A program made the position numbers and the translations under genes. Below are positions 25,743 to 44,171 of a stretch of 64,000 nt of DNA, piece by piece. The DNA comes from Oceanobacillus luteolus (lineage in GTDB: Bacteria > Bacillota > Bacilli > Bacillales > Amphibacillaceae). The notes under the pieces are model-generated. The model saw nothing but the letters and a program-made list of their open reading frames with translations, was not told the DNA's origin and did no database searches. The stretch covers positions 1 to 64,000 of the forward strand of contig NZ_JAMBON010000013.1 in NCBI RefSeq assembly GCF_023715655.1, in the 5' to 3' direction. Numbering within the stretch: the stretch's first letter is position 1; each line of letters opens with the position of its first letter.

Positions 25743-26600
25743 TTAAGAGCTCTTCCTTCTATCCTCCAGCTCTTCTTCTCTCACATGCCCACTCACCAAC
25801 TTCTCCTTACGCAATGATTTAAAGAATGATATCGCCATCACTACGATAACTATTGAGACTGGTAGTCCTGCAGCGGCAGATACAGTTTGTAGCGGTGTTA
25901 ATCCACCGGTTAAATGTAAAGCAATTGCCACACCGGCGATAACCATTGCCCATAGAATTTTACTGCGTGTTGATGGGTCTGTGCTTTCTTCGCTATACAT
26001 ACCAAGCACATAAACAGTCGAATCTGCCGAGGTAACGAAAAAGATGATTAATGAAATAAATGTCATTAAAATGAGTATTGGTGATGCTGGGAATAGTTCT
26101 AGGAAATAGAAAAGAGCTGTATTCATATTTTCTAAAATTCGATTGACAAGTTCTGAATCTCCGAGGTTAATAATGTTATAGAGGGCAGTTCCTCCGAATG
26201 TCCCATACCAAATCATTGTTGCAATCGTTACTTCCCCAAGAACAAATTCCCTAATCGTTCTCCCTTTTGATATCCGAGCGAAAAATAGTCCTACAAATAC
26301 ACCGAAGCTAATTGCCCAACCCCAATAGAAGAAATCCCAGCCTGCTTGCCAGCTATAATCATCAAGAAATGGCTCTAGATGAAAGCTCATAGCCAGAAAA
26401 TTACTTAGATAGTCTCCAGTTGATGTAAATAGTATTTCTACGATCTTCACGCTTGGACCAAGAATGAATACTGCAACCAAGATCGTTAATGCAATTACAA
26501 TGTTAGTATTGGATAACCATTTAATCCCTCGTTCAATGCCACTGCTTGCCGATAGGGTAAAGATAAGAGTTAGGATGAGGATTAAGATAATGTTCTTCCA
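25743..26600 (-). pseudogene. BCCT-family transporter, 5'-truncated remnant
   Basis: About 285 codons encode the C-terminal half of a betaine/carnitine/choline transporter. The characteristic block is present in the form WGWAISFGVFVGLFFARISKGRTIREF, cited here only by its key residues W-G-W and R-T-I-R-E-F. TSADSTVYVLGMYS and the final helices follow. Full-length family members have about 500 residues; the first 200 are missing. Homology begins close to 26600, and the lacI-like gene ends at 26637, so the remnant has no promoter or start of its own. The intact terminator downstream supports decay from a real gene by deletion or insertion at this junction. Confidence 0.8.
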
Positions 26601-26636
26601 CCACGGATAATGCATAAAAAAAAGCGAATACACCCT

Positions 26637-27638
26637 CTACCTTCGACTCGACTCCCTCACAATCAACTCCACATTCAATTCAACATTACGATTTATTGTT
26701 TCATCTGGTTTTTCAATCAATGATATTAATTGAGTCACCGCATTTTCTCCAATTTCTACAACTGGTTGTTTAATTGTACTAATTTCGGGATTCACCATTT
26801 CCGTCAACTGTATCCCATCAAAACCAATAATCGCGATTTCTTGAGGAATGGGCACTTGCTGTTTGGCAAAAGTTTTTAATGCGCCGATTGCCATGAGATC
26901 ATTCGCATAAAATACACCGTCGATATTCTGATTCGAAGCAAGCATTGCCTCAGTAATATTCTTTCCGCTCTCTAGCGAGAAATCACCTTCAAAAATGATT
27001 GGTTCAAGATTCAAATCCTCGACAGCGCTTAGATAACCATTCAATCTCTCTTTTGCAGTCAGGACTGTTTTCGGACCACTAATGTGTGCGATTGCCTTAC
27101 ATCCAATGTCTACCAAATGGTTGACTGCCATTTTTGCACCTTCAAAGTTATTTACACTTACCGTATTATTTTCCTTTGCATGCACTGCTCGGTCAATTTT
27201 CACAAAAGGAATATTTACCTGACTTAAGTAATCTTGGATTTCACTGGTCAATTCCGATTGTGCTAATAGAAACCCATCAACGTATCTGCTCCTAAGATTA
27301 TTCCAAAAGTCCTTTTGATTTAATTCCTCTTCTTTTGTATTGATTAGCAGTAAACTATAACCCTTTTTCTTCGCGACATGTTCTATCGACTTAATCATCT
27401 CCGGGAAAAAGGGGTTCGTAATATCGGGAGTAATGAATGCAATCGTATTCGATTTCTGCTTCGCTAAACCACGCGCTATTGCATTCGGTGTGTAATTGAA
27501 TTCATCCAGTACCTTTTGTATTTTTTTCTCTGTCTCTGGACTCGTATAGCTAACTTTATTCAAATAACGTGACACCGTAGCAATAGAAACCCCTGATGCT
27601 TTTGCAATCTCTCTTATAGTCACTTTTTTCTTCGTCAC
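26637..27638 (-). CDS. LacI-family transcriptional regulator
   Basis: A 333-residue regulator. The N-terminal helix-turn-helix is TIREIAKASGVSIATVSRYL (about residues 5-24), with a hinge helix at PNAIARGLA. A periplasmic-binding-like ligand domain follows (IAFITPDITNPFFPEM, VDGFLLAQ, VKIDRAV, IAIIGFDGIQL). It is the last gene of module A, 100 nt after the larger ADP-ribosylglycohydrolase gene. The obvious targets are the two GTAACCGGTTAC operators at 37016-37075. The effector is probably a sugar or nucleoside derivative taken up by the adjacent transporter. Confidence 0.92.
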   Translation of the reverse strand: MTKKKVTIREIAKASGVSIATVSRYLNKVSYTSPETEKKIQKVLDEFNYTPNAIARGLAKQKSNTIAFITPDITNPFFPEMIKSIEHVAKKKGYSLLLINTKEEELNQKDFWNNLRSRYVDGFLLAQSELTSEIQDYLSQVNIPFVKIDRAVHAKENNTVSVNNFEGAKMAVNHLVDIGCKAIAHISGPKTVLTAKERLNGYLSAVEDLNLEPIIFEGDFSLESGKNITEAMLASNQNIDGVFYANDLMAIGALKTFAKQQVPIPQEIAIIGFDGIQLTEMVNPEISTIKQPVVEIGENAVTQLISLIEKPDETINRNVELNVELIVRESSRR

Positions 27639-27738
27639 AACGTTTCTCCTATAAATCCATATTAACTGAATTATAACATAAATTTCCCCCTCAGTAAGGA
27701 AGGTGTTTCACGCAACATTGTTTCATCTCTCTGGACAA

Positions 27739-29838
27739 CTATTCTCGAACCTCTACATGTTCATATTCACATGATCCAGCTTCTGAAAGTGAAAATCCGA
27801 TCATTCCATGGGTTAATCGCTCATCCAGATGCTCTAATACTAAATCTCCATTAATGAAGAATTGAATTTCCGAACCACGGACCGCTACTTCAAACGTATA
27901 ATCTTCATTTAAATTCCAGTCATAGTCCACGCTTTTCAATGTTTCTAAACCGAAATCATTAAGTTGAAGTGCTACTTTTCCTTCACCAGCAAAGCCTGCT
28001 TGATAATACTTCTGCGTTCCTAACGCACGGAATAAAAGAGCATGGTGATGACCAGCTGTTGGTTTTAATCCCGCTCGAATAACGGCATCCTTCATATAAT
28101 AATGTCCAGTGAAAGAAGCACAGTCTTCGTTACTGTCAACTACCATCTTCCCACTTTCTAGATCCCAATTTCCTCGATGATGTGCGAATGGTGTAACACT
28201 CAGAAACTCAACAACCTGTTTTGAAAAATCAATATCATAGTTTGGCGCACCATAAATATGAAATTCATCCAAGAATATTTTCCCAAAGGCACGATAATCC
28301 CTCGGTGATGGACTTTCAATTGCAAAGCCCACTTCTTCAACGAAAGAACCTTCCGTATCTGGAATAATGAACTCTACTGTCTGCCACGTCTTATCTTCCA
28401 AAGTAACCGGCTCGAGCTCTACTACTTCTTTTGTAAATGTATCACGAATATATGGTGTCACAATAACTTCTTTTCCACGAAGTTGATCTAGATATAGTTT
28501 CATTGACACTGTTTGACCACTGTAAGCTTTCGGTGCAAATGTTGGTTTGTACTTTTCATCATTGAACTGATCTCTACGGTAAAATGTTTGATAATAAACT
28601 CTACTCTTTTCCCCTTCAACCATACGATCAATGAATATCTCTAAAGAACCAGGTGTGCGATATCCAAACTCATCATTTGGTTTTAATATCGTTTTGAAAG
28701 GTACTTCCGTTTGAAAACCATGTGTGGAACCAGGTAATGTGAAATCGAAAAACACATCTTCTTCCTTAAAGCCATTCACTAACATTTCAGGCGCTTGTTC
28801 ACCTGACACATGGTACCCTAATAAGGCTAATGATTTTACGAAAGAAGGGATATCCAATATATTTAAATACCCTGAAACACTCGATGTTACTATAAAGTCA
28901 TTAATCGGTGCGCGATACTTATCTTCAATACCATTAATTCCCACAAGCGTGCCAACAATCGATCCGACATTCCCTGCATTACAGTCTGTATCCCAGCCAC
29001 ATGCAGTCGCAATTTCAATTGTTTTCGATAAATCCCCTTCTCCGTACACGAGGGATAATACACATACTCCGGCGTTCGGAATGATATGGCAGACGCCCGT
29101 ATATTTGTCATAACCCCATTCTTCCTCTAAATACTGGCGGCATTTCCAAAAATCATCGGGATGTTCTTTTTGAAAATCCAATACGGCATGTACAACTTTT
29201 GCATACGTTGAATCAGCCGGGATTTCTTTTAACCCACGGGATATGACTTCATCGATAGTTGAAGCTGAGAAAGCTTCTGCGATACATGCAGCAATGAATC
29301 GAGCACCATATAATCCATTAAGGTCATGGGAGACACTGGCTGCTTTCTCTGCATAATCTGCTGCTTTCGTTGGATTGTTCGGGAATATCCAGCCCCATGT
29401 ATCAATGAAAATCTGACCACCAATCTGTTCCGCCATAATGATTCCATTTGTCTCGGCAGAGCCTGATTCCGGTGCTTCCATCCCTCGAAGTAAATTCAAA
29501 TATGCCGTATGCTCGGTACTAACACCGTCTCCACCCCACCAGAACATTCCAATCCCTTCTCTGGAATAATTCAGCCATGCTCTAGCTACATCCTGAGCTT
29601 CCATCTCACGATCAACTGCATCATCGATTAAAGCACGAAGGAAAAATACTGGCCCATTCGCATCATCATCGGCAGAGAACACATTATAATCTTTTAAATA
29701 TCCATTTACTTCACCATATACATCCGATATCATTTCCGGTGTCCATTCGGTTGGTTCCACTGGTGCACCTAAACGAATGCCAGCATTCATTCCAATAAAA
29801 CCAGCGTATACTTTTTCTAAGTAATTATGTGGTATCAA
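27739..29838 (-). CDS. ADP-ribosylglycohydrolase-family protein with C-terminal beta-rich domain
   Basis: A 699-residue protein starting at TTG (29838) behind GGGGG. Residues about 5-330 form an ADP-ribosylglycohydrolase-like helical domain with GMNAGIRLGAPVE near the start and GWDTDCNAGNVGSIVGTLVG (about 286) as a metal-site motif. The usual TDDT motif is replaced by SADDDANGP (about 55). Residues about 360-699 are beta-rich, carbohydrate-binding or LamG-like in appearance (FAHHRGNWDLESG, YEFEVAV-like strands). No signal peptide is seen. The architecture suggests hydrolysis of an N- or O-riboside or related glycoside. It is coupled to the 383-residue paralogue upstream (17 nt). Confidence 0.78.
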   Translation of the reverse strand: MIPHNYLEKVYAGFIGMNAGIRLGAPVEPTEWTPEMISDVYGEVNGYLKDYNVFSADDDANGPVFFLRALIDDAVDREMEAQDVARAWLNYSREGIGMFWWGGDGVSTEHTAYLNLLRGMEAPESGSAETNGIIMAEQIGGQIFIDTWGWIFPNNPTKAADYAEKAASVSHDLNGLYGARFIAACIAEAFSASTIDEVISRGLKEIPADSTYAKVVHAVLDFQKEHPDDFWKCRQYLEEEWGYDKYTGVCHIIPNAGVCVLSLVYGEGDLSKTIEIATACGWDTDCNAGNVGSIVGTLVGINGIEDKYRAPINDFIVTSSVSGYLNILDIPSFVKSLALLGYHVSGEQAPEMLVNGFKEEDVFFDFTLPGSTHGFQTEVPFKTILKPNDEFGYRTPGSLEIFIDRMVEGEKSRVYYQTFYRRDQFNDEKYKPTFAPKAYSGQTVSMKLYLDQLRGKEVIVTPYIRDTFTKEVVELEPVTLEDKTWQTVEFIIPDTEGSFVEEVGFAIESPSPRDYRAFGKIFLDEFHIYGAPNYDIDFSKQVVEFLSVTPFAHHRGNWDLESGKMVVDSNEDCASFTGHYYMKDAVIRAGLKPTAGHHHALLFRALGTQKYYQAGFAGEGKVALQLNDFGLETLKSVDYDWNLNEDYTFEVAVRGSEIQFFINGDLVLEHLDERLTHGMIGFSLSEAGSCEYEHVEVRE

Positions 29839-29855
29839 TTCATATGCCCCCTATA

Positions 29856-31007
29856 TTATTCTATGATATCTGTAAGTACTGCGATTTTCTCAATGTCGCT
29901 CTTTATGATCTGTCTTGCAGTCTCTGCAAATTCCTCTGTAATGCTGTTGAAATCTAGTTGATTAGAAGTTTCAAGTAATGCAACATCTTCAGATTCAACT
30001 ACTGAGGCACCATACATTGCACCAAGAATTACTCCAATCATCACTCCGATTGAATCGGTATCACGCCCCGAATTTATTCCATCATAAATAGATTTATAGA
30101 AAGCACCGTCATTATACAAAATAAAACCTAAAGCAAAAGGCAATTCTTCTATAGATCCTAGTCGACTCGGTGTATAATGATTCGATGGAATTCCAACTTT
30201 CTCCAATTTTCTAGATACATCATCTCCCATAGGTGAATATGGCAGAATCGCTTCTTGGAAAGCAGCAACAACTTCGTCCATCGTACAATTACTTGCTTTC
30301 AATTCTCGGGCAGCATTTGTAACTGCAATAATTGCCTGCTTTGTGCCGTCTTTAGCAAATTCAATTGACGTCTCAATAATTTCTTCTACTGTAACATCGG
30401 ATTGAAAAGCTTTTGCGACACATGCAGCTAACACACCAGCAGCTTCCAACCCATAGCTCGTTTGATGTCCCATCGCAAATAGAATCGCTTCATCATACGC
30501 AGCCTTTGGATTTCCGGCATTTACAATTCCCACTGGTGCAATATACATTGCTGCACCACAATTAATCATGTTGCCGTAACCACCTTCCCGTGGTTCACAA
30601 TTCGCTAGCGTATGACGCAGGAATATATGCTTTTCCGGGTAAAAAAGACGTTCGATGATCATATCTTCACGGTCAAATTCTGGGATATATGTTTTGCGAA
30701 AAGCAATCTCTTTAACAAATTCATTTGACATGTCGTACGCATCCAAGTGTCTTCTTTCAATGTTGTACACATTACATAAGGCTAATGTCATCAGGGTATC
30801 ATCTGTCACAATTCCATTTCCGCGTTTTTTACCTTTATGTGCATCGTAACCCATTTCTTCCTTATACCATTTCGTTTTCAAACTTTCCACACGACCGTAT
30901 CGTTCCTTAATTTCTTGATAGCTTAACTTTTCAACGGGAGCGCCGAGTGCATCACCCAGCGCCGTTGAAATTAGAACACCTTTGACTTTATCTTTAAAAT
31001 TAGACAT
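29856..31007 (-). CDS. ADP-ribosylglycohydrolase-family protein
   Basis: A 383-residue member of the DraG/ARH hydrolase family. KGVLISTALGDALGAPVE (about residues 8-25), the metal-binding TDDTLMTLALC (about 68) and GRDTDSIGVMIGVILGAMYG (about 315) are present. Known members cleave ADP-ribose from proteins or small molecules using two Mg/Mn ions. Next to a ribokinase and an ABC importer, a catabolic role on an imported ribosylated solute is more likely than protein de-ADP-ribosylation. AAGGAG lies 5 nt before the ATG. It is 11 nt downstream of the binding-protein gene. Confidence 0.85.
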   Translation of the reverse strand: MSNFKDKVKGVLISTALGDALGAPVEKLSYQEIKERYGRVESLKTKWYKEEMGYDAHKGKKRGNGIVTDDTLMTLALCNVYNIERRHLDAYDMSNEFVKEIAFRKTYIPEFDREDMIIERLFYPEKHIFLRHTLANCEPREGGYGNMINCGAAMYIAPVGIVNAGNPKAAYDEAILFAMGHQTSYGLEAAGVLAACVAKAFQSDVTVEEIIETSIEFAKDGTKQAIIAVTNAARELKASNCTMDEVVAAFQEAILPYSPMGDDVSRKLEKVGIPSNHYTPSRLGSIEELPFALGFILYNDGAFYKSIYDGINSGRDTDSIGVMIGVILGAMYGASVVESEDVALLETSNQLDFNSITEEFAETARQIIKSDIEKIAVLTDIIE

Positions 31008-31018
31008 TCATATGCTCC

Positions 31019-32473
31019 TTATTTAATCGTTTCATTTGCTAATTCGGTCAATTCCGTACCACCTGCTGCATACCACTCTTCAACGAAATCTTCAAAAGCA
31101 TCGAGTGGTAGTTTACCAGTAATTATATCTGCTGAGTATTCTCTATATAAGTTTTCCATTGCATCCCATTGTGAAATAGACTCTTGTGGGAGAATGAAGG
31201 TATTGTCTTCTGCAAAGTATTCACTTGCTAATTGTTCAGACTCGAGTCCTGGCTTACTTAGCATTGGTGTTTCTTCACTAATTGGTTTCGTAAATTCTAC
31301 ATCTACTGGCTCCCAATAGCGTGCATACCAATCTGAATAATAAGCATCCGTCAATTCAATGGAATCATCTGTTTCATTATGATGCTCTCCTTCAAATCCA
31401 AGACGGTCGAATTGTTGCCCTTCTGGACTAGCTAGATAATCCAAAATTTCGAACACCAAGTCTTTATTTGGAGATACTGCAGAAATCGCTACACCACGTG
31501 ATTCTTTTGTAACATCAGATGCACCAAAACCTTGATAGATACCTTTTGCCGGTGGGAGCACTGCTAATTCAGCTTCCTCACCATTCACTTCTTTTACTCT
31601 AGTATTATAAAAATCTACAACCTTACCATTTGTACCAACTATTACACCGGCTTTGCCATCATAAAAGGCGTCTTCTTTCGTATCCCATTGTTTCGTTAAA
31701 TATTGATTGTCCAGCAAACCTTCCTCATATAACTCCCTGTAAAAGGCAAGTTTCTCTTTTTCTTGCTCGGATACTTTACTAAATACATAACCATCATCTG
31801 TTTCCAACCATGTTTGATTGATGCCGAATGCGTTTTCAAAAATGAAGTCCAACTCTGCTATGTCACCAGCTACGGTCATTGCATAATCAGCATTACCAGT
31901 TTCCACTATTTCTTCAAATAGAGATTTGTAGTTTTCAATCGTCGGATCTGCTAATAATGCATCTGCAGTACTTAATTCATTTAAAATATCTTGGCGCACA
32001 ACAGGCACTTTATAGTCAATTGGTTTTACCCATAATAAATATGGATAGTTATCTAATCTTAGTTCATTATGTGGTTGTAAAATATCCTTTAAATACTCCG
32101 ACTCTTCAATATAGGGGCGAAGATCGACTAATAAATCCTGGTTGGCAATTTGTTGGTCTCCACCTTGGAAGTAAATCAAATCAGGGATTTCACCACTGTT
32201 TAATAACAAACTCAACTTCTCAGAGTAGTCTCCTTGAGCAACTTCTAATAATTCAAATTGCACATCTAAATCCTTATCTTCCTTTAACTTTTCAGCTAAA
32301 GTTTCATAGTATTTCACAGCATTTGGATTTGATGGCCCATCATCTTTGAACGCTACTTTGATGATTGTCTTTCCATCCTCTGTTACTTCTGCCTGAGGCT
32401 CTTCATCTGAAGAGCAAGCCGCTAATAAACCGATAAATAATAATGCAATCAGCAAAAATTTAATTTTTTTCAT
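31019..32473 (-). CDS. Family 1 extracellular solute-binding lipoprotein (LplA-like)
   Basis: A 484-residue lipoprotein with lipobox LLAAC (Cys about residue 20) followed by SSDEEPQAE. The size and the sequence around FQGGDQQIANQDLLVDLRPYIEES resemble the large LplA/YtcQ-type sugar-binding proteins that work with LplB/LplC permeases. It would deliver an oligosaccharide- or nucleoside-like solute to the permeases encoded just upstream. GGAGGTACTTGAGAG leads into the ATG. Confidence 0.86.
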   Translation of the reverse strand: MKKIKFLLIALLFIGLLAACSSDEEPQAEVTEDGKTIIKVAFKDDGPSNPNAVKYYETLAEKLKEDKDLDVQFELLEVAQGDYSEKLSLLLNSGEIPDLIYFQGGDQQIANQDLLVDLRPYIEESEYLKDILQPHNELRLDNYPYLLWVKPIDYKVPVVRQDILNELSTADALLADPTIENYKSLFEEIVETGNADYAMTVAGDIAELDFIFENAFGINQTWLETDDGYVFSKVSEQEKEKLAFYRELYEEGLLDNQYLTKQWDTKEDAFYDGKAGVIVGTNGKVVDFYNTRVKEVNGEEAELAVLPPAKGIYQGFGASDVTKESRGVAISAVSPNKDLVFEILDYLASPEGQQFDRLGFEGEHHNETDDSIELTDAYYSDWYARYWEPVDVEFTKPISEETPMLSKPGLESEQLASEYFAEDNTFILPQESISQWDAMENLYREYSADIITGKLPLDAFEDFVEEWYAAGGTELTELANETIK

Positions 32474-32574
32474 CTCTCAAGTACCTCCAATGTTTTTTGT
32501 CTTCATTTGTCCTTTGTACATTTCTTTCAACAATATAAATAAAGACATCCCCCTCCTTTAAAGAGACCTAAAAG

Positions 32575-33450
32575 TTAGTCTTTCACTCCACCATCCATCG
32601 TTCCTTTTGTAAAGTATTTTAGAATTAATGGATATAAAAGCAGTAAAGGTATAATCGCAATAACTATCGTACTTGACTGCAGTGAAGCGAAATCCAGACT
32701 TGCCAACACTTCTGGAGATAGATTCATGCCTGCCAACATTGTTGTATTATCTTGAGTCACAACAAATTGTCTTAAGACAACTTGTAGTGGCCATTTACCT
32801 GGATCGGAAATGTAAATCGTCGCACGGAAATATTCATTCCAATGATAAACTCCGTAAAATAAAGTCAATGTTGCTAACGCCGGTTTGGACAGAGGCAAGA
32901 CGATTCGGGTGAATATGCGGAAGTGCCCAGCTCCATCAATTCTTGCTGATTCAATTATACTCTCAGGTATTTCCTGGAAGAAGCGCATCAAAATGAATAA
33001 ATAGTACACATTAATCGCCTTATAGAAAATCAAAGATGCATAGGTGTTTAGTAATCCCAAATCCTTAACCAGCAAATACTCCGTAATCATGGATGGCTCA
33101 AATACCATAATCGCAATAAGAAATATTAATACGAAATTCTTACCTACAAAATTCGTACGGGCAAGTACATAAGCTGTAATTGAAGTTAAAGTGAGGTTCA
33201 GTACTGTTCCAACAATCGTTATGAATACAGAGTTGCCGATACTTTTTAAAATCATGGGATTGGATAAAATAATTTCATAGTTTATTAGTGAGAACCCCTT
33301 AGGAAAAATGCCCAAGCCTGACAATTCATTAACTCGATCTGGTGATGACAGGGACATGGCCAACAAATTCAGAAGGGGAATTAAAACAGCTAAAGAAACG
33401 AAAAATAAAATAGTATATATAATGGTCCGGGACCAGCTCATTCTTCTCAT
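32575..33450 (-). CDS. LplC/YtcP-type sugar ABC permease
   Basis: About 291 residues with six membrane segments and the EAA loop IIESARIDGAGHFRIFTRIVLPL (key residues E-S-A-x-x-D-G-A and L-P). The ATG at 33450 with GGAGG upstream is preferred over the longer frame to 33474. It pairs with the LplB-like permease 13 nt upstream. No ATP-binding subunit is encoded in this operon. Confidence 0.88.
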   Translation of the reverse strand: MRRMSWSRTIIYTILFFVSLAVLIPLLNLLAMSLSSPDRVNELSGLGIFPKGFSLINYEIILSNPMILKSIGNSVFITIVGTVLNLTLTSITAYVLARTNFVGKNFVLIFLIAIMVFEPSMITEYLLVKDLGLLNTYASLIFYKAINVYYLFILMRFFQEIPESIIESARIDGAGHFRIFTRIVLPLSKPALATLTLFYGVYHWNEYFRATIYISDPGKWPLQVVLRQFVVTQDNTTMLAGMNLSPEVLASLDFASLQSSTIVIAIIPLLLLYPLILKYFTKGTMDGGVKD

Positions 33451-33463
33451 TTTAATTCCTCCA

Positions 33464-34357
33464 TTACCATACACCTTTTCCTGTCAGTCGCTTAGACAGG
33501 AAATGTGTTCCTAAAATCAAGACCAAGCCAATGGCACCTTTAAATAGGCTGGCAGCAGTAGCATAGGAATACTCCCCGTTCAAAAGACCGATTCGATAAA
33601 CATACGTATCTAAAATATCAATTTTACTGATTACGGAATCATTCATTAGATTAAACACTTGGTCAAAGCCCGCGTTCATAAAGAAACCAAGGTTTAATAT
33701 GAATACGGTTACAACAGTGGTGGCAAGAGCTGGTAATGTAATGTGACGCATTTGCTGAAAGGTGCTTGCCCCATCAAGTTGTGCCGCTTCATATAAATGA
33801 GGACTGATTTTCATAATTGCTGCGATATAAAGAATACTGTCCCAACCTGCACTCCGCCACATTTCAGAAAACACAAGCACCCATCTGATATGGTCTTTGC
33901 TAGTCATAAAATCGAGAGAAGGAAGCTGGAAAAAGTTACGAATAATATTAAATCCCCCATCCGGACTTAAAAAACTGATCCAAATACCTGCGATAACAAC
34001 CCAAGACAGGAAGTGCGGTAAATAGGATACAGATTGTACATATTTCCTAAAAGGACCTGAACGAACTTCACTGATCAGTAATGATAGAATAATAGGGATT
34101 GGGAATATAAAGATGATTTTCATCGTACTTATGATAATCGTATTTTGCAATACATCCATGAAGGCTGGGGAGCTGAACAGTACTTGAAAATGTTTTAGTC
34201 CTGCCCACGTATTCTCGCCAATAATCCGATAGTCTTCAAATGCCAATTTCATATTAATAATTGGAATGACGTGGAAAATAATGAAATAAGTAATTCCAGG
34301 TAGTAACATTAAATATAAAATCCAGTCGCTGCGAATCCTCTTTAGTTTAGCTTTCAA
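33464..34357 (-). CDS. LplB-type sugar ABC permease
   Basis: A 297-residue permease with six membrane segments and the EAA loop HLYEAAQLDGASTFQQM. The TTG start at 34357 is placed 7 nt after GGAGGGG and overlaps the ribokinase gene by 11 bp. It begins the transporter block of module A. Confidence 0.87.
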   Translation of the reverse strand: MKAKLKRIRSDWILYLMLLPGITYFIIFHVIPIINMKLAFEDYRIIGENTWAGLKHFQVLFSSPAFMDVLQNTIIISTMKIIFIFPIPIILSLLISEVRSGPFRKYVQSVSYLPHFLSWVVIAGIWISFLSPDGGFNIIRNFFQLPSLDFMTSKDHIRWVLVFSEMWRSAGWDSILYIAAIMKISPHLYEAAQLDGASTFQQMRHITLPALATTVVTVFILNLGFFMNAGFDQVFNLMNDSVISKIDILDTYVYRIGLLNGEYSYATAASLFKGAIGLVLILGTHFLSKRLTGKGVW

Positions 34358-35255
34358 GCCTTCTCCCCTCCTTCTCCAATAGCTCGTTCATTTCATGTTT
34401 ACGTGGCATGCCAGACTGTGCTCCTTTTTTCATGACTGCCAAACTTCCAGCATACGTGCCATAAACAATACAATCATGTAGTGGCATTCCTTCTGATAGA
34501 GCTACTGCAAATGCCCCGGTGAATGTATCACCTGCACCCGTCGTATCAATTGCTTTAACCCTTCTCGCAGGTACAGTTACAACTTCTTTACCATTATGGT
34601 ATTTGACACCATACTTCCCACAAGTAACAATCAATTTATTCGGATACTTCGCCAAGAGTCCATCCTTATCACCTATGTCATCCGTAATAATGGAAACTTC
34701 ATGCTCATTCGGAGTGATATACGTAATCTTCTCTAATATTTCATTCGACAGTAATTGCGCTGGTGCAGGATCAAGAATGATTGTTTTGTTATGGGAATGA
34801 AGAATAGGTATTAAGTATTCTAATGCATCTACTGGAACTTCCAACTGAAACACGAACAAATCATAGTTTAATAGATTTTCTAAATGTTGCTCACTATATT
34901 TCCGGTTCGTATATTGATTTGCACCAGGAACAATGATGATTCGATTTTCACTTTCACATAATTGAATAAATGCCGCTCCTGTCGAAACATCATTTCTAAC
35001 ATTTAAATAGTTTACATCTACATTTTCTTCTTTAAAATGTTCGAGAAGGATATTTTTTTGATCATCATTTCCTATTGAACCGAACAAAGCAACATCTCCG
35101 CCAAGCCTTGCCGCTGCAACTGCTTGGTTGGCACCCTTCCCACCAAAGTTCATGAAGAAATTTTCTCCGGAAACCGTTTCTCCAGCCTTGGGAAGTATTT
35201 TACTTTCTACAAAGTAATCGATATTGACACTGCCAAACACAGCAATTTTTTTCAT
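34347..35255 (-). CDS. rbsK: Ribokinase (PfkB family)
   Basis: A 302-residue PfkB kinase. The N-terminus KKIAVFGSVNIDYFV, the GGKGANQAVAAARLG motif (about residues 38-52) and the C-terminal catalytic DTTGAGDTFTGAFAVALSEG (Asp about 243) match ribokinase, which makes ribose 5-phosphate from ribose and ATP. GAGGAG precedes the ATG. Its place beside two ADP-ribosylglycohydrolase-like proteins suggests it captures ribose released from an imported riboside. Another sugar kinase specificity cannot be excluded. Confidence 0.87.
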   Translation of the reverse strand: MKKIAVFGSVNIDYFVESKILPKAGETVSGENFFMNFGGKGANQAVAAARLGGDVALFGSIGNDDQKNILLEHFKEENVDVNYLNVRNDVSTGAAFIQLCESENRIIIVPGANQYTNRKYSEQHLENLLNYDLFVFQLEVPVDALEYLIPILHSHNKTIILDPAPAQLLSNEILEKITYITPNEHEVSIITDDIGDKDGLLAKYPNKLIVTCGKYGVKYHNGKEVVTVPARRVKAIDTTGAGDTFTGAFAVALSEGMPLHDCIVYGTYAGSLAVMKKGAQSGMPRKHEMNELLEKEGRRLES

Positions 35256-35261
35256 CTTCTT

Positions 35262-35579
35262 CTACTCCTCATCGATGTCAATATTCATTAGCGGGGCGTG
35301 CTGTTGTGCCCCATATACATCACGATCTCCGGCACTGCCAGAAGAAATGTCTCTTGCCATCGTTATCTTAATTCCTAATGCTTGATCAAAGAATACAAAA
35401 TGATGGATATCACTAACTTCAATATGATAGAGTCTTGCAATGCGTTCTTTCGTCAAAATTCCAGATTGCTTAACATGATCATACTTTTCCTTTTCTTCAA
35501 ATAAAATATCCAAAGTTACTTCAAATGGACCAGCATTTTTACTGCGCAGTACTTTAGCATACTCATATAACTTAGTCAT
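35262..35579 (-). CDS. DUF4387 small protein (AtuA-associated)
   Basis: A 105-residue protein whose YAKVLRSKNAGPFEVTLDIL start is typical of DUF4387. In other bacteria this domain follows, or is fused to, AtuA-like DUF1446 proteins. The ATG at 35579 with GGAGGTGG upstream is chosen; the longer frame to 35603 would run deep into the AtuA gene. It overlaps that gene's stop by 8 bp, consistent with a two-subunit enzyme. Confidence 0.82.
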   Translation of the reverse strand: MTKLYEYAKVLRSKNAGPFEVTLDILFEEKEKYDHVKQSGILTKERIARLYHIEVSDIHHFVFFDQALGIKITMARDISSGSAGDRDVYGAQQHAPLMNIDIDEE

Positions 35580-36936
35580 TACTTCCCACCTCCAACCATT
35601 CAATACGAAACGGATTATCAGTCACTTCCAGTAAATGATAGACAGAGAACTGATAAACGGGACCAAAGGTGACATCACTTGGTGCAAAAGGAAAGGCCAA
35701 ATTACCTGCCGTTGATTTCCTTCCTTCATATCCATAGTGCAAGTAAGTGGAGCGAAGCGTAGCACAGAGCGCGTTTGCCAGTTCTTGAGTTTTTGCCAGC
35801 ACTTCAAATAAAACGCCCACTTCATGACCTTGGAAAATCTCTGGTTCTTTATCTCCAAGTACCGCATTTTTTCCATAGTAGTAAAAGTTGATTTCATATT
35901 CTGTCTCTGGTACTTCAACATAATAATTTTTCACTTGTTTTTTGACTTCCTTTTCGACCTTCTCCAAATTAGCGAGTAATAACGGATCACGAATCCCTGC
36001 TATAACGAAGGCTCGATAGGATGTTTTCCGTGCACCCTCGAGTTTAACTAAATGCTTCTCTGTTTCTACATATGTACTGCCTTTGACTTCAACTACTCCT
36101 AGAGATTTCTCTGTAAAGCTACAATTTGATAAGTCTAATTGAAAACCTGGACCATTTAAGAGATACGGATGTTCTTTTTCATAAAAGGTATGGGCGGCGA
36201 CACTGGTCTTTGTACATTTTCTCTCCGGGTTTAACGATTCTACGGTAAATGAATCCGAATAAATTGTTCCTAATATGCTATCTTTTGTCGTTCCGGGTTC
36301 CGCACACAATGCACCGCACTCCAGTATCTTTCCTAAGTGATAGGATAAACCTTCGTCCATTCCGTGATAAATGCCAATCGCAGCAAACGGAGAAGGGTCA
36401 TAAGCCCGGCCGCAAACGATGATGTCTGCCCCTCCTTGAAGTGCCTCCAATATTGGTTCATGCCCCATTTGTGCAACGATTGAAGCAGTTTCCTGAACAG
36501 CTTCTTTCGTTAAATCCGGAATATTATTCGATAGGGGGGTAATTCTATTGTCGTCCAATGCATCGATAATATAGTCTTTTTCAAAATCAGCCCAAATGAC
36601 TGCAATCTTTGCTTCATAGTTCTGTTCATGAATGATTTCTTTCAGAATAGCAAGCGTGTCTTCCACATGCTGTTTTGCTCCCGCTCCACCAGCTGATCCA
36701 ATAATCGTCGGGATTTTATTTGGAATACCTTGCGCTAACATGATTTCCAAATCTTTTTTCACTGCCCTCTCACTGACAATCGATACTCCTGCACCGAGTT
36801 TATGCGGACCTGCATCTGTCGATCCTGCATCAACCACGATCCCGTCTATTTTCTGATCAAAAGCACGATCAAACGACTCTTTTGGAAATCCGTAACCAAG
36901 CATCCCGCTTGGTGAAACAATTCTAATCTCTTTCAT
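35572..36936 (-). CDS. AtuA-like acyclic terpene utilisation family protein (DUF1446)
   Basis: A 454-residue protein with SPSGMLGYGFPKESF at the start, DGIVVDAGSTDAGPHKLG (about residues 31-48), IIGSAGGAGAK and DIIVCGRAYDPSPFAAIGI, all typical of DUF1446/AtuA. The family is named from acyclic terpene degradation in Pseudomonas, but the biochemical activity is unclear to me. It is the first gene of the LacI-controlled operon and forms a pair with DUF4387. With ribokinase and ADP-ribosylglycohydrolases nearby, terpene metabolism is unlikely here. Confidence 0.85.
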   Translation of the reverse strand: MKEIRIVSPSGMLGYGFPKESFDRAFDQKIDGIVVDAGSTDAGPHKLGAGVSIVSERAVKKDLEIMLAQGIPNKIPTIIGSAGGAGAKQHVEDTLAILKEIIHEQNYEAKIAVIWADFEKDYIIDALDDNRITPLSNNIPDLTKEAVQETASIVAQMGHEPILEALQGGADIIVCGRAYDPSPFAAIGIYHGMDEGLSYHLGKILECGALCAEPGTTKDSILGTIYSDSFTVESLNPERKCTKTSVAAHTFYEKEHPYLLNGPGFQLDLSNCSFTEKSLGVVEVKGSTYVETEKHLVKLEGARKTSYRAFVIAGIRDPLLLANLEKVEKEVKKQVKNYYVEVPETEYEINFYYYGKNAVLGDKEPEIFQGHEVGVLFEVLAKTQELANALCATLRSTYLHYGYEGRKSTAGNLAFPFAPSDVTFGPVYQFSVYHLLEVTDNPFRIEWLEVGSND

Positions 36937-37015: not shown

Positions 37016-37033
37016 TAGGTAACCGGTTACATA
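37016..37033. promoter_or_regulatory. LacI-type operator 1
   Basis: TAGGTAACCGGTTACATA contains the perfect 12-bp palindrome GTAACCGGTTAC (37019-37030) with the central CG typical of LacI-family sites. It lies in the predicted 5' leader of the AtuA operon. It is the exact reverse complement of operator 2. Confidence 0.85.
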
Positions 37034-37057: not shown

Positions 37058-37075
37058 TATGTAACCGGTTACCTA
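37058..37075. promoter_or_regulatory. LacI-type operator 2
   Basis: TATGTAACCGGTTACCTA, with the palindrome at 37061-37072, is centred 42 bp from operator 1. It begins directly after the -10 box, so repressor binding would block initiation. Confidence 0.87.
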
Positions 37076-37076: not shown

Positions 37077-37105
37077 ATAATAGATCAGCTTTTCCTTTTA
37101 GTCAA
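37077..37105 (-). promoter_or_regulatory. Strong promoter of module A operon
   Basis: On the minus strand -35 TTGACT (37105-37100) and -10 TATTAT (37082-37077) are separated by exactly 17 bp, giving a start around 37070, inside operator 2. Confidence 0.85.
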
Positions 37106-37304
37106 TTGATTTTTTGCAAAAAGTTTGTGTTATATAAAAATACAATTATTTCCGAATTAGATAAATCTATGAACTGTCAGCTTACATGAGTCAACCTCAT
37201 AGCTCTCCTGCTAGGATAAGCTATGTTTGGGAGTAACATCCACAGAATCTGAAAGTAAGAGAGTGAGCGTCAAAAAGTCCACACAGCTGGCTCATTTTGT
37301 CAGA
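37106..37304. other. Intergenic DNA between module A promoter and the nagB remnant
   Basis: About 200 bp with no ORF that I can support. A weak hairpin CATAGCT/AGCTATG (37198-37228) is the only structure noticed. Confidence 0.4.
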
Positions 37305-37869
37305 TCAATCAACAACTTTAAAACCTTGTTCTTCCAACATTTCAATTGTTTGTTTCAAGCTAACATGTGAATCTGAATCTCCTTCATACTGTGATCCAGG
37401 CAACTTGCTAAGTTCTAAATCTATCACTTGTGTCCTACTTGAAAAAGGTGTTTCCGGTTCATTAAAACCGATATGTCCATTCTCCCCAATTCCCAGTAAT
37501 TGAAGGTCGATGCCACCCTCAGCTTTAATTTTTGTTTCGTATAACTCACATTCTTCATGTAAATCACTAGCAACTCAATTAGATGCGTTCACATGTGTTA
37601 ATGAGGTATCCACATGATAAAAAGGCTTTCTCTCATAAAATAGTAATAACTATTAGGGTTGTCGTTATCCAGCTAAGTTAAATGATTTTACACGTTAAAG
37701 AAACCTCGTGTTGACGATACTTCTCAATGATCCGCTTATACAAGCCTTCCGGAGTTGATCCTGTAGCAAGCCCTAACACTGGTGTTTTTTACTGATTAAT
37801 TTTTTCTACAATGATAGAACAGGAGGTATTGCTCATTTCATGATAATCTTTCACCCGAATGACCCTCAG
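37305..37869 (-). pseudogene. Decayed nagB fused to the 3' tail of a DUF1307 lipoprotein gene
   Basis: Minus-strand translation from 37869 gives LRVIRVKDYHEMS, then PVLGLATGSTPEGLYKRII, NPNSYYYFMRESLF and [19 protein letters not shown], the N-terminal half of glucosamine-6-phosphate deaminase. It is broken: no ATG (CTG at 37869-37867), an in-frame TAA (37791-37789), a frameshift near 37665-37680 and a TGA (37577-37575). After RTQVIDLEL the frame runs into [10 protein letters not shown] and [14 protein letters not shown], ending at 37305. That tail matches the C-terminus of the lipoprotein at 48751-49200. The catalytic C-terminal half of NagB is gone, so no function is expected. Confidence 0.85.
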
Positions 37870-37945: not shown

Positions 37946-38632
37946 TTATTTTAGAATCCTTTTAATTTCATCCACAGTTTTTTTATTAAATCCTTTTTCA
38001 AAAGATTTATTGCTTCTCACTCCGCGGCCAAAGTGGTATTCTTTTGCCTGCACAGCTTCATGAATTTCCGTTATATTATCCACATCTAATCCACTTCCAG
38101 GTAGAATCTCAGGACCCTTTGTTTCCCGCTGCAATTGAACTAGCTTGGAGAGATTTATAATCCCTGCGCTACAGTTATCTTCCCCTCCTGAGGTCAGTAT
38201 TCTTTTAACGTTTCTGCTATATCGTGTTAATGTCTCGTAAGCTTCCATTTGGTCATCCACTTCATCAAATGCACGGTGAAAAGTAACATCTACTTCAGGA
38301 AATTTCTTGAATAGTTGATCGAGAAAATCAGTATCTATTTTATGATTATCGCGGAGTGCACCTATCACGATACGATGATGACCTAACTTGTTTAGAAAGG
38401 CAATTTCCTCTAACATTACTTCTTTATCATATGTATCATATACAAACCCATAAGGATGGGGTCGAACCATAACTTGAACAGGTATGTGTACACTTTTCAA
38501 TACAGTTTTAATCGTTCCATGAGATGGTGTTAAACCACCCACCGCTATTGCAGATACTAATTCTAATCTGTTAACCCCGAGTTTTTCAGCATGAATGGCA
38601 TCTCGTTTATTTTCTACAATACATTCAATCAT
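37946..38632 (-). CDS. cutC: CutC-family protein
   Basis: About 228 residues, a TIM-barrel CutC with MIECIVENKRDAI at the start, VMVRPHPYGFVY, VTFHRAFDEV (about residues 116-125) and ILTSGGEDNCSAG. CutC was named for copper homeostasis, but this role is disputed and the conserved pocket suggests an enzyme. Many Firmicute copies lie in sugar-catabolism operons, as here. The ATG at 38632 has AGGGGGAA upstream; the frame to 38653 has no ribosome binding site. It is last in module B, 91 nt after the FAD oxidoreductase gene. Confidence 0.85.
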   Translation of the reverse strand: MIECIVENKRDAIHAEKLGVNRLELVSAIAVGGLTPSHGTIKTVLKSVHIPVQVMVRPHPYGFVYDTYDKEVMLEEIAFLNKLGHHRIVIGALRDNHKIDTDFLDQLFKKFPEVDVTFHRAFDEVDDQMEAYETLTRYSRNVKRILTSGGEDNCSAGIINLSKLVQLQRETKGPEILPGSGLDVDNITEIHEAVQAKEYHFGRGVRSNKSFEKGFNKKTVDEIKRILK

Positions 38633-38723
38633 TCCAGAGTTCCCCCTGTCCAATTACGAGCTTGTACCGAAGCCTGATGCTCTTCCCTCAAAATAAGAGA
38701 AAAGCACCACCCTCGGCCTTAAA

Positions 38724-40331
38724 CTATACCCTATTCGTCTCTCTCCCAAATGTTTCCTTCATTCTCTCAATCGGGTTATCTTCTATGGAATCATCCCACT
38801 CAAGTACTTGGCCAACTTTCAGGAGTTCTTCTCTTAATTCCTCATAATTTATGTCTTGAACAATCGTCTCATTCTTGATACTTAAACTTGCGGCAACTGC
38901 TGCGGATTGTCCTAACATCATAAATACAGGTTCCATTCTAATCGATCCATAAGCAATATGTGAGCTGGACAGACATACAGGTACTAATAAATTTGTACAT
39001 TCCTCTGCCTTTGGTCTAATCGACTGATAAGAGATTGCAAAAGGAGAAACCGGGATTTGGATATCTCCTTCATTTACTACTCTACCATCTATTACAACCC
39101 GTCGGACATGGTGAGAGTCCATTTGATAAGATGCTAGACCAACAGAGTCGGTAACAGTTTGAGTACCAAGACAGTTATGATCGGTCATAACATAATCAGA
39201 AATCATTCTTCTTCCTTCACGGATGTATAACTGATGAGGCCAGTGCGCTGTTTCTACAAATTCATCTATCGGTAATCCCCACTGGGAAACTTCTTCACGA
39301 ATAGTCTTTGGTACACGTTTATCATTGCTAAGGAAATATAGCATTCCTACGTTATATGTCACATGGTCTTGGAAGATTTCTTCGCGGGTTTTATATGAAC
39401 CATCAGGCCAATCATAATTCATTCCAATGTTATCGGAAGAAAATCCCCCATAGTTATTTAAATCTGTTTTTCCATTTGGAAGCATCGTATGTAGATTCAT
39501 CGCATCCCAAAATCCAGCATGTATATAACGCAGCAGCAACATATATCGGTCCGCATCATAATTCTTTGGTTTAGGAAAAGGTATTTTATTATCTTCATCA
39601 CTTGTTAGGCATACTCTGAAATTATATGCCTGGATTCGCTTATCGCCTTGCCCGTTATAGCCGATCAAATTCATATCGGTTTCCGTAATGCCGCTCAGAT
39701 AGCCACTCTCCTTATCTCCTTCGATTACATATGGATCAATCCACGTCTCAAACTTATGATGCTGACCATTGAATTGGACACCATTATAAATTTCTTTATA
39801 CGTAGCATTTGATTCACGACCGACAAAATAGGATACATTCGATCTTGCTAACAAATCCCCCTCATATGTAGCATCAATAAATACCTTTCCGATATAGGAA
39901 TTACCATCTTCCATCATCAGTTCCTTAATTTCGCCGTTCTCCATCACGACTTCTTCCAAGGTTTGATTATAGATAACATCAATCTCATATTCTTCCAGCC
40001 AGTTCTTATAAATTTCCATCGCTACTTTTGGTTCAAATTTAAATTGCTTCTCTTCCTTATAGTAAGTAGAAACACGATTATAAAACTCTCTGGATAGACC
40101 ACCAAGAGCAGCTTCTGCTCCTAAGTCCGTCGCCCCTAAACCACTTGCAGTCATGCCCCCGATATACCTTCCAAACTCAGCAATGACAACAGATAAACCG
40201 GATTTCCTTGCTTGAATGGCAGCTGTTATTCCAGCAGAAGTTCCTCCATATATAACCAAATCACGTTCAAATTGCTCCGGATTACTTTTCTTCTCAATCG
40301 GTCGATAATAATATAAGTTATCAAAACTCAT
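38724..40331 (-). CDS. FAD-dependent oxidoreductase (FAD_oxidored family)
   Basis: A roughly 535-residue flavoprotein. DLVIYGGTSAGITAAIQARK (about residues 24-43) is the FAD-binding fold, followed by EFGRYIGGMTASGLGATDLG, a hallmark of the PF12831 family. VFIDATYEGDLLARSNVSY and the C-terminal GSIRMEPVFMMLGQSAAVAA fit too. Members are often found in sugar and glycan operons and some oxidise sugar hydroxyls; the substrate here is unknown. The ATG at 40331 has GGAGGAGAT directly upstream. It follows the MalG-like permease by 19 nt. Confidence 0.84.
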   Translation of the reverse strand: MSFDNLYYYRPIEKKSNPEQFERDLVIYGGTSAGITAAIQARKSGLSVVIAEFGRYIGGMTASGLGATDLGAEAALGGLSREFYNRVSTYYKEEKQFKFEPKVAMEIYKNWLEEYEIDVIYNQTLEEVVMENGEIKELMMEDGNSYIGKVFIDATYEGDLLARSNVSYFVGRESNATYKEIYNGVQFNGQHHKFETWIDPYVIEGDKESGYLSGITETDMNLIGYNGQGDKRIQAYNFRVCLTSDEDNKIPFPKPKNYDADRYMLLLRYIHAGFWDAMNLHTMLPNGKTDLNNYGGFSSDNIGMNYDWPDGSYKTREEIFQDHVTYNVGMLYFLSNDKRVPKTIREEVSQWGLPIDEFVETAHWPHQLYIREGRRMISDYVMTDHNCLGTQTVTDSVGLASYQMDSHHVRRVVIDGRVVNEGDIQIPVSPFAISYQSIRPKAEECTNLLVPVCLSSSHIAYGSIRMEPVFMMLGQSAAVAASLSIKNETIVQDINYEELREELLKVGQVLEWDDSIEDNPIERMKETFGRETNRV

Positions 40332-40350
40332 GAAAATCTCCTCCAATACC

Positions 40351-41169
40351 CTATTTGATACTTCCTGCCGTCATTCCTTCAATAAACTTCTTCTGAGCAA
40401 AGAAGAAAATAATTAATAACGGAATTGTAGCCAATGTGGTAGCACTCATCAGATGCTCCCAAGCAGTACCAGTTTCATCTGTAAATAAGGACAATCCAAC
40501 CGGTAGTGTCATTAAATCCCTATCATTAATGAAAATTAATGGATATAAAAATTCATCCCAGTTTGTCAGGAATGTAAAGATTGTCAATGTTGATAAAGCA
40601 GGAACTGAAAGTGGTAAGAATATTTTCCAATAGATTTTAAAACGAGAGCATCCATCCATAACCGCAGCCTCTTCTAATTCTTTTGGAATGGCAATAAAAA
40701 ATTGTCTCATTAGAAAAACCCCAAAAGCACCAGGTGCACCAAAAATCGGTAAGATGATCAAAGGTATATGAGTATTAATGATATCTAAATCTCTCATGAA
40801 TAAAAACAATGGAATAATCGTTACCTCTGGTGGAATCATCATGACACTCAAAAGTAAGATAAAAATAATGTTCTTACCAGGAAAATTCAGTCTGGCAAAT
40901 GCATACCCTGCCATCGATGCAAATAGTAAAACCGAGATAGTGACTAATAAGGCGATATAAATACTATTCCAATATTGTGTTAAAAACGTGCCATTCTGTA
41001 ATACATCCAAGTAATTTTCCCATCTAATTGGATTAGGGAAGAACTGGGTGAAGATACGCGATCTTTCTTTTAATGATGTAGCGATCATCCATATCAATGG
41101 GCCGATCATAATCAGTGTAATAATAGATAAGGATATATATTTTAATGTTAATCGTCGTTTAGTCTTCAT
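40351..41169 (-). CDS. MalG-type sugar ABC permease
   Basis: A 272-residue permease with six membrane segments and the EAA loop ELEEAAVMDGCSRFKIYWKI (key residues E-E-A-x-x-D-G). The ATG at 41169 with AAAGGTGG upstream is preferred to the longer frame; it overlaps the MalF-like gene by 11 bp. No ATPase gene accompanies it. Confidence 0.88.
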   Translation of the reverse strand: MKTKRRLTLKYISLSIITLIMIGPLIWMIATSLKERSRIFTQFFPNPIRWENYLDVLQNGTFLTQYWNSIYIALLVTISVLLFASMAGYAFARLNFPGKNIIFILLLSVMMIPPEVTIIPLFLFMRDLDIINTHIPLIILPIFGAPGAFGVFLMRQFFIAIPKELEEAAVMDGCSRFKIYWKIFLPLSVPALSTLTIFTFLTNWDEFLYPLIFINDRDLMTLPVGLSLFTDETGTAWEHLMSATTLATIPLLIIFFFAQKKFIEGMTAGSIK

Positions 41170-42070
41170 AGAATATCCACCTTTTACGAACAACCCAAGA
41201 TATAACGGTAAATACTAGTAGGATAAAGAACAATACAAATGCCAATGCTGACGCATATCCCATATCAAATAGCTTAAAGGCTGTTTCCCAAATATAGTAA
41301 ACGAGCACCTTCGTACTTTCACCTGGACCGCCATTCGTCATAACATACACTTGACCGAATATCTTCATCGCACCGATTGTTGTAATAATTATCGTTAAAA
41401 ATACGGTCGGTGTGATCAATGGAAACGTGACATTACGGAATTTAACATAGTTAGAAGCCCCGTCCAACTCCGCTGCTTCATATAACTCTTTTGGTACCTG
41501 TTGCATCGCCGTAAGAAATAGAATCATATTTAATCCAACATTCTTTAGAACGCTTACAACAATAACCGCTGGGAGAGCGGTATTTGGATTCAATAGCCAA
41601 CTCGGACCAGTAATGCCAAACCAACCGAGCATTTGATTAATAAATCCTAACTCCGGAGCTAGAAGATACTTCCATACAATAGCCCAAACAACGAGTGATG
41701 TCATAACCGGCACAAAAATTGCCGTTCTAAAGATACCAATTCCCCAAAACTTCTCTTTTAAAAGATTCGCCAAAAACAGTGCTAGAATAATATTTAGTGG
41801 TACAAGTCCTAGACTAAATAACAATGTGACCTTCAATGAATTCGTAAACGAAGCATCACTCATCAAGTTCCGGTAATTCTCTAGTCCGATAAATGCCTGT
41901 TCACCTAATAACGGCCAATCATGCAAACTCATAAAAAATGCATAGACTAAAGGACCGAACATAAAGATGGTAAATCCTATAACCATAGGGGAGATGAACA
42001 ACCAACCAGCAATTGCTTCCCCCCGTTTTGCACTAAATGTTTTTTTTGTTTTTGCTTTGTTGTTCAGCAT
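41159..42070 (-). CDS. MalF-type sugar ABC permease
   Basis: A 303-residue permease. A basic N-terminus is followed by six membrane segments and the EAA loop ELYEAAELDGASNYVKFRNV. The TNGGPGESTKVLVYYIW segment is typical of MalF/UgpA-like permeases. It lies between the TIM-barrel gene (15 nt) and the MalG-like gene. Confidence 0.88.
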   Translation of the reverse strand: MLNNKAKTKKTFSAKRGEAIAGWLFISPMVIGFTIFMFGPLVYAFFMSLHDWPLLGEQAFIGLENYRNLMSDASFTNSLKVTLLFSLGLVPLNIILALFLANLLKEKFWGIGIFRTAIFVPVMTSLVVWAIVWKYLLAPELGFINQMLGWFGITGPSWLLNPNTALPAVIVVSVLKNVGLNMILFLTAMQQVPKELYEAAELDGASNYVKFRNVTFPLITPTVFLTIIITTIGAMKIFGQVYVMTNGGPGESTKVLVYYIWETAFKLFDMGYASALAFVLFFILLVFTVISWVVRKRWIFYED

Positions 42071-42085
42071 ATGATCATCCTTGCA

Positions 42086-42781: not shown

Positions 42782-42844
42782 TTTATCACCTCTTATGTTA
42801 TTTGAACACCTATGGAAAGAGAACGGCGGGAACCGTTCTCTCAT

Positions 42845-44137: not shown

Positions 44138-44171
44138 AATTTTCCCCCTTCCGTATAAGTCAATGATATCA

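Follow-up and report, generated by a model that had tools for sequence, protein, structure and literature searches.

The question raised by this locus was which compound is broken down by a gene row that couples an importer and a ribokinase to two ADP-ribosylglycohydrolases and an AtuA/DUF4387 pair. The locus lay in a 64,000-nucleotide stretch of Oceanobacillus luteolus DNA (contig NZ_JAMBON010000013.1, positions 1 to 64,000; hereafter the window), and it was composed of nine intact open reading frames (ORFs) at 26637 to 36936 on the minus strand, forming an operon that starts with AtuA. This operon is likely to degrade a glycoside with a hydroxy-acid aglycone; more narrowly, and judged from sequence, the compound would on balance be a furanoside of citramalate or of a similar 2-hydroxy-diacid, with an O-ribofuranoside as the likeliest form. 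The nine genes were as follows, in reading order.

35572 to 36936, minus strand: AtuA-family protein resembling citramalate lyase subunit A, 454 aa (AtuA, 92.4 bits in Pfam/NCBIfam; matches to 9erq_A and 9evf_A)
35262 to 35603, minus strand: DUF4387 protein resembling citramalate lyase subunit B, 113 aa counted from a TTG start (DUF4387, 134.6 bits; match to 9erq_B)
34347 to 35255, minus strand: ribokinase, 302 aa (PfkB; TIGR02152, 303.3 bits)
33464 to 34357, minus strand: CUT1-type permease 1 (BPD_transp_1)
32575 to 33474, minus strand: CUT1-type permease 2 (BPD_transp_1)
31019 to 32473, minus strand: binding lipoprotein, 484 aa, with LLAACSS in its N-terminus (SBP_bac_8/SBP_bac_1)
29856 to 31007, minus strand: ADP-ribosylglycohydrolase 2 (hydrolase 2), 383 aa, DraG/ARH3-like (PF03747, 146.6 bits)
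27739 to 29838, minus strand: ADP-ribosylglycohydrolase 1 (hydrolase 1), 699 aa (PF03747, 171.8 bits)
26637 to 27638, minus strand: LacI-family regulator (LacI/Peripla_BP_3)

All named families scored above their Pfam cut-offs (26.2 bits for PF03747, ADP_ribosyl_GH), and the genes overlapped by at most 32 bp or were separated by at most 101 bp. The same gene set had been listed in an earlier note on this DNA, and Pfam and NCBIfam bore it out; the span given there, 27739 to 36936, held the named operon genes but left the LacI gene outside.

The acid part of the compound was indicated by AtuA/DUF4387. In sequence searches, the two proteins matched the subunits of a solved PDB entry labelled citramalate lyase: AtuA matched 9erq_A (E = 3.7e-136) and DUF4387 matched 9erq_B (E = 2e-31 across residues 12 to 111). 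The AlphaFold2 model of AtuA (mean predicted local distance difference test [pLDDT] 87.9) had 9evf, entitled 'Citramalate lyase - ADP - pyruvate complex' in PDB, as its sole Foldseek match at E 0.001 or better (9evf_A: template modeling [TM] scores 0.95/0.94, 1.9 Å, 47% identity). The operon pair thus had in common with CmlAB (PDB 9erq, 9evf) both subunits, their adjacency and the fold, and AtuA/DUF4387 is, as predicted from sequence and model, a two-subunit protein of citramalate-lyase fold. A role of AtuA as a terpene enzyme was dropped, since its sole solved relative by sequence was labelled citramalate lyase.

AtuA/DUF4387 also occurred in gene clusters of other kinds. On plasmid records of Escherichia coli, Salmonella, and Prevotella, methylaspartate mutase and methylaspartate ammonia-lyase were followed by AtuA/DUF4387, with fumarase slightly further on; this gene order corresponds to the route from glutamate via methylaspartate and mesaconate to citramalate, the next intermediate. 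Fumarase also followed AtuA/DUF4387 in other catabolic clusters on a Klebsiella plasmid and a Neorhizobium galegae plasmid (L163), the latter with agmatinase, cytochrome P450, and dehydrogenases ahead of AtuA–DUF4387–fumarase; the L163 cluster may serve a guanidine-isoprenoid such as the host compound galegine, via mesaconate and citramalate. In an excerpt of a Prevotella intermedia transcriptome table, the AtuA gene adjoins methylaspartate ammonia-lyase (PMC10434189).

The AtuA tree contained 112 rows; left out of it were L053 (389 residues), L001 to L003 and L067 to L081 (duplicates or short stretches), and AtuA matches covering 380 residues or fewer. One branch gathered 56 of the 58 glycohydrolase-linked rows plus two short-contig rows, the remaining two glycohydrolase-linked rows (L130 and L132) being placed elsewhere, while all 24 rows with mutase or ammonia-lyase nearby fell into a different branch arising from the same unresolved fork. 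In 57 AtuA loci, taken from a public-genome scan with patterns from the window's AtuA alone, no methylaspartate or fumarase gene was found at E 1e-6, so the acid would be expected to derive from the imported compound and not from mesaconate. The pairs at L168, L171 to L173, and L175 had AtuA 34–38% identical, other transporters and enzymes nearby, and no other match to the query set in the stretch; the AtuA/DUF4387 family therefore probably has more than one role.

The importer/hydrolase core was also found with another lyase module, in two settings: (i) in a genome of the same family (G010), a coenzyme A (CoA)-transferase of family III and a CitE/HpcH lyase stood in one gene row with the core, which was 49% (ribokinase), 74/62% (permeases), 53% (binding protein), and 65/59% (hydrolases) identical to that of the window, and AtuA/DUF4387 was not found in the examined G010 stretch; and (ii) on rhizobial plasmids, the gene order was LacI–permeases–binding protein–hydrolase 2–hydrolase 1, followed by ATPase, CoA-transferase, and CoA ester lyase. 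A hydrolase 1 relative sharing 40% identity or more was present in 16 plasmid records (15 over 99–100% of the query and one over 86%); the neighbourhoods were read for 11, and in the other five the lyase position was taken from match positions. A CoA ester lyase was located within 3 kb of the hydrolase 1 relative in 11 of the 16 records, both genes being in pieces at L092. Among the other records, L159 had only the CoA-transferase beside the core, L087 and L158 had an intact ribokinase there, L090 had just a 65-residue ribokinase fragment, and L091 had neither ribokinase nor lyase module. The two modules were not found together: AtuA/DUF4387 was absent from the 11 rhizobial stretches read, and no CoA-lyase or CoA-transferase match at E 1e-6 was found in the 57 AtuA loci.

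Among proteins of solved structure, the Ensifer lyase was most similar to the mitochondrial CitE-like protein 5vxc, which we take to be citramalyl-CoA lyase. The Ensifer CoA-transferase matched family III enzymes, including succinate-hydroxymethylglutarate and formyl-CoA transferases, and its top curated score, far below cut-off, was for succinate-glutarate CoA-transferase. Identity between the G010 and Ensifer lyases was 33%, and the rhizobial operon copies were not among the top 15 plasmid matches of the G010 lyase; because of this, the CoA-lyase module was probably recruited twice, independently. The pairing of one core with two lyase modules of unrelated chemistry would point to an acid of the citramalate or malate type as the molecule cleaved. 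Malate can be fed into central metabolism unaided and needs no dedicated lyase, whereas citramalate needs one; malate was dropped for this reason, citramalate or a relative being the better guess, and a hydroxy-diacid of citramalate type is the predicted aglycone. The earlier note had assigned AtuA/DUF4387 to the released aglycone or an acid derived from it, and this assignment gains support from the citramalate-lyase fold, the citramalate neighbourhoods, and the module replacement. Modules of the same two families that replace AtuA/DUF4387 were present at L166 and L167, but these adjoined tricarboxylate transporters, presumably for uptake of the free acid, and no glycohydrolase was annotated in the stretch.

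The replacement also bears on whether the operon serves one substrate or two. Separate riboside and citramalate pathways might merely share one operon under one switch, as suggested by the 11 rhizobial stretches, in which the core had either the lyase module or ribokinase adjoining, never both. This arrangement is improbable, because the operon has a single importer, in three lineages this core carried a lyase module, and the 57 loci lacked the methylaspartate/fumarase genes that accompany AtuA/DUF4387 in other clusters.

Apart from the genes of the two hydrolases, no PF03747 gene was found in the 4.0-Mb assembly. The alignments contained, besides the window, 22 relatives of hydrolase 1, 22 of hydrolase 2 or related proteins, and 21 of AtuA, chosen for spread from the 57 loci. 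We take the dinuclear-metal motif of PF03747 to be TDDT ... DTD plus an upstream Glu (aligned here to ARH3), and both hydrolases, as predicted from score and motif, belonged to this family: (i) in hydrolase 2, which had profile matches to MJ1187, ARH3, and DraG, T68, D69, D70, T71, D316, and D318 were invariant in 23 rows, and the upstream Glu was absent only from five clostridial rows of another subfamily; and (ii) in hydrolase 1, E28, D57 to D59, D283, and D285 were invariant in 23 rows, with A56 and C286 in place of the flanking Thr. Hydrolase 1 (AlphaFold2 model, mean pLDDT 89.5) was composed of a catalytic domain, a middle beta domain, and a C-terminal CBM66-like domain. Its best PDB matches by E-value in Foldseek were beta-sandwich parts of glycosidases with low TM scores; the N-terminal domain resembled ARH3 (TM to target about 0.76), and the C-terminal domain resembled CBM66 of Bacillus subtilis levanase (TM to target 0.80–0.83; sequence profile E about 2e-7). 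CBM66 binds terminal fructofuranose.

Both hydrolases have the fold and the acidic metal motif of ARH3 and DraG, and this homology would fit erasers of protein ADP-ribosylation that stand in a sugar operon by chance. Such a role is extremely unlikely and was dropped: the linkage to importer and lyase was conserved, no ADP-ribosyltransferase family was present among the operon genes, and hydrolase 1 carried the CBM66-like domain. The two proteins differ from ARH3/DraG in operon setting, and hydrolase 1 differs further in A56 and C286 at the two Thr positions and in its extra beta domains.

Additional PF03747-type proteins were observed near some of the 57 loci. L042, L043, L040, L019, and relatives had two further proteins of about 330–350 aa, making up to four glycohydrolases (the Pfam scan covered the L042 pair), and on a Murimonas intestini contig a further long ADP-ribosylglycohydrolase, with 25% identity to hydrolase 1, was encoded about 6 kb upstream of AtuA (L060:1990-3993).

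The kinase and the importer were considered for the nature of the sugar. The operon kinase was the only gene in the assembly above the TIGR02152 cut-off, which it passed narrowly (303.3 versus 299.65 bits), and the kinase counterparts in G010 and Agrobacterium were below it (289.8 and 279.4 bits). The importer genes, namely binding lipoprotein plus two permeases, were of CUT1 type; the lipoprotein had weak PDB matches, six including YesO, AlgQ1, and an arabino-oligosaccharide binder. No ATPase gene was found among the nine operon genes, and the best relative of the rhizobial operon ATPase elsewhere in the assembly was 53% identical (G000:C162:48375-49469). At L064 (Metabacillus kandeliae), the examined stretch lacked the importer, and a gene for a concentrative nucleoside transporter (CNT) lay beside AtuA. 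A furanoside is indicated by this CNT replacement of the ATP-binding cassette (ABC) importer together with the CBM66-like domain. In view also of the kinase score, of the intact ribokinase at L087 and L158, whose rhizobial operons lack the lyase, and of a distant hydrolase 1 relative located with ribokinase and DeoC (L140), the predicted sugar is a furanose, most likely ribose.

The same logic could hold with other parts, the furanose being apiose, fructose, or deoxyribose, or the acid being a 2-alkylmalate or an ester or lactone of citramalate. We consider this unlikely but worth keeping in view: the CBM66 matches were levanase modules, AtuA had clade-specific positions (see below), the clostridial operons L057, L059, and L060 had an alpha/beta-hydrolase esterase embedded in or adjoining them, which hints at an esterified form of the compound there, and at L140 a distant hydrolase 1 relative occurred with ribokinase and DeoC. 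Another furanose is disfavoured by the kinase score, which was 303 bits as ribokinase versus 90 bits as fructokinase, and by the lack of any known apiose or fructose enzyme among the nine operon genes.

Scavenging of ADP-ribose, nicotinamide adenine dinucleotide (NAD), or ordinary nucleosides would agree with the family name of the hydrolases, the ribokinase, and the one CNT transporter. It is very unlikely all the same, and for NAD and ADP-ribose it was dropped, because no phosphatase, pyrophosphatase, or base-handling family was present among the nine operon genes, and hydrolase 1 stood beside AtuA/DUF4387 in 55 of the 57 loci and beside CoA-transferase/lyase elsewhere. To our knowledge, none of ADP-ribose, NAD, nicotinamide riboside, and ordinary nucleosides yields a hydroxy-diacid. 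The earlier interpretation is thus supported in part, as a riboside-like substrate that would be cleaved with phosphorylation of ribose and action of AtuA/DUF4387 on the aglycone acid, whereas the candidate substrates named with it, namely those four, gain no support.

The gene set was present in Bacilli and Clostridia, and its co-occurrence in the 57 AtuA loci is far from chance: DUF4387 was found in 57, hydrolase 1 in 55 (the two without it, L012 and L045, were both on short contigs), each permease in 54, the binding protein in 53, the 383-aa-type hydrolase in 48, and a ribokinase-like gene in 45 (36–67% identical). The alignment included five clostridial loci, whose second hydrolase came from another PF03747 subfamily (24–27% identical). 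Hydrolase 1 matches were found in seven of 159 genomes of the window's family Amphibacillaceae (own genome counted, two matches weak), and this rarity suggests that the gene set spread horizontally. In a phylum sample of 398 genomes, AtuA was found in 97 and any hydrolase 1 match at 1e-20 in 39. Acyltransferase-type look-alikes were located upstream of AtuA in two species (L052:6984-8306 and L049:7871-9142); the L052 protein matched PapA_C just below cut-off, and the L049 one was compared by eye.

The operon is well supported, as predicted from sequence, to be under LacI control, which the earlier note had proposed. Three sites were located in front of AtuA:

37077 to 37105, minus strand: promoter-like site TTGACT-17-TATTAT, ending 4 bp before operator 1
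37061 to 37072, strand-neutral: predicted LacI-type operator 1, palindrome GTAACCGGTTAC, just downstream of the promoter-like site
37019 to 37030, strand-neutral: predicted LacI-type operator 2, palindrome GTAACCGGTTAC

These two were the only exact copies of GTAACCGGTTAC in the assembly, and the reversed control pattern had none. The promoter-like site counts solely by its place, because the whole scan gave 36 such sites versus 41.5 in shuffles, i.e., no excess. The LacI protein had helix-turn-helix and ligand domains as well as predicted operators at its own operon, as a local regulator would; its best-scoring curated family was RbsR (ribose repressor), below the RbsR cut-off. At least one operator-type palindrome within 320 bp upstream of AtuA was present in 29 of the 57 loci, and two in 23 (raw counts without shuffle control). 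Of the 21 loci that had a close LacI orthologue (45% identity or more), 18 had such a palindrome. None was found upstream of AtuA in the seven clostridial loci or in 14 of the 15 Paenibacillus-labelled loci, the exception (L031) being placed with Cytobacillus in the AtuA tree.

From gene content, families, linkage, the two predicted folds, the operator-like sites, and the module replacement, we infer the substrate, the reactions, and their order as follows. The lipoprotein and two permeases would import the furanoside, powered by an ATPase encoded elsewhere in the genome; the furanosyl bond would be cut by the two ADP-ribosylglycohydrolase-type enzymes, hydrolase 1 perhaps holding the sugar with its CBM66-like domain; ribokinase would convert ribose to ribose 5-phosphate; and AtuA/DUF4387 would split the acid into pyruvate and acetate, the CoA variants of G010 and rhizobia instead yielding acetyl-CoA and pyruvate.

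Several points weigh against a ribofuranoside of citramalate. The most direct concerns the acid: the operon AtuA clade and the methylaspartate-linked clade had 98 near-invariant columns in common but differed at 18 fixed positions (K46/Y, K218/S, F251/L, and Y338/N among them), and at 17 of these positions 9erq had the residue of the methylaspartate-linked clade (alignment read by eye). Since the solved enzyme sides with the methylaspartate type, the acid handled by the operon AtuA/DUF4387 may differ from citramalate, and because of the 18 positions the pair is termed citramalate-lyase-like and not a member of CmlAB, from whose clusters it also differs in having no methylaspartate/mesaconate enzymes and in being tied to glycohydrolases instead. 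Other-clade AtuA/DUF4387 pairs sat in quite different neighbourhoods. As to the sugar, a ribokinase-like match (60 bits) was missing from the examined stretch in 12 of the 57 loci (L062 ends inside a ribokinase-like ORF), the ribokinase-like gene was just 36–45% identical in 16 loci, and the CNT replacement was one event in one genome. As to the linkage, close relatives are over-represented among the 57 loci because the selection patterns came from the window's own AtuA, most of the 11 lyase-bearing plasmids were near-identical Ensifer plasmids and so not independent, and divergent hydrolase 1 loci of the same family (L097 to L099, 39–42%) had neither lyase module in the examined stretch. A literature search by title and phrase turned up no named furanoside of citramalate or malate, and the furanoside substrate and the enzyme activities are predictions from sequence.

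The operon was flanked by the following regions: (i) directly after LacI, an ORF for a BCCT transporter (25743 to 26633), covering only model positions 215 to 485 with the N-terminal half missing; (ii) between CutC and AtuA (37250 to 37850), minus-strand broken pieces resembling by eye glucosamine-6-phosphate deaminase (nagB), a 39-residue piece of which matched no Pfam family; and (iii) an adjoining second carbohydrate-type cluster (37946 to 48499), encoding CutC, a flavin adenine dinucleotide-dependent oxidoreductase, two permeases, a binding protein, DUF4127, a two-component pair, and a 252-aa protein with no Pfam match.

A nutritional role of such hydrolases with a dedicated importer had been called new, which is too strong a claim, since E. 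coli K-12 yegT-yegU-yegV is annotated as a putative transporter, an ADP-ribosylglycohydrolase, and a sugar kinase in a row, as in the operon; yegTUV differs in having one hydrolase, no ABC importer, and no lyase module, and its annotation gives no substrate. Bacteroides ribose utilization systems combine ribokinases with nucleoside and ADP-ribosyl hydrolases and SusC/D-type uptake, and we know of no AtuA/DUF4387 or CoA-lyase module in them. Literature searches found no paper on (i) ADP-ribosylglycohydrolase with DUF4387 or DUF4387 alone (subscription papers were mostly uncovered, and ADP-ribosylglycohydrolase with citramalate was not searched), (ii) citramalate lyase with cmlA, (iii) this enzyme, judging by the titles of papers on citramalate lyase published since 2021, or (iv) ribose scavenging, in a multi-term search. 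In the excerpts available of the 'AtuA family' literature, ADP-ribosylglycohydrolase is named only in an unrelated locus.

The operon parts belong to known families, and the predicted compound would be new. We put forward only tentatively, as a possibility short of expectation, that a widespread, undescribed O-ribofuranosyl citramalate, or a furanoside of a close hydroxy-diacid, feeds soil, plant-associated, and gut bacteria through glycosidases of ADP-ribosylglycohydrolase fold, one with a carbohydrate-binding module, and through two unrelated lyase chemistries, one of them probably recruited twice. If this is true, an enzyme fold known for erasing protein modifications would gain a nutritional role that can be tested, and AtuA/DUF4387 would have a proposed reaction class inside the operon. 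Tests should be easy with the operators and the variants of G010 and rhizobia at hand, and the gene modules would predict a class of compound to be sought in soil, plants, and gut.

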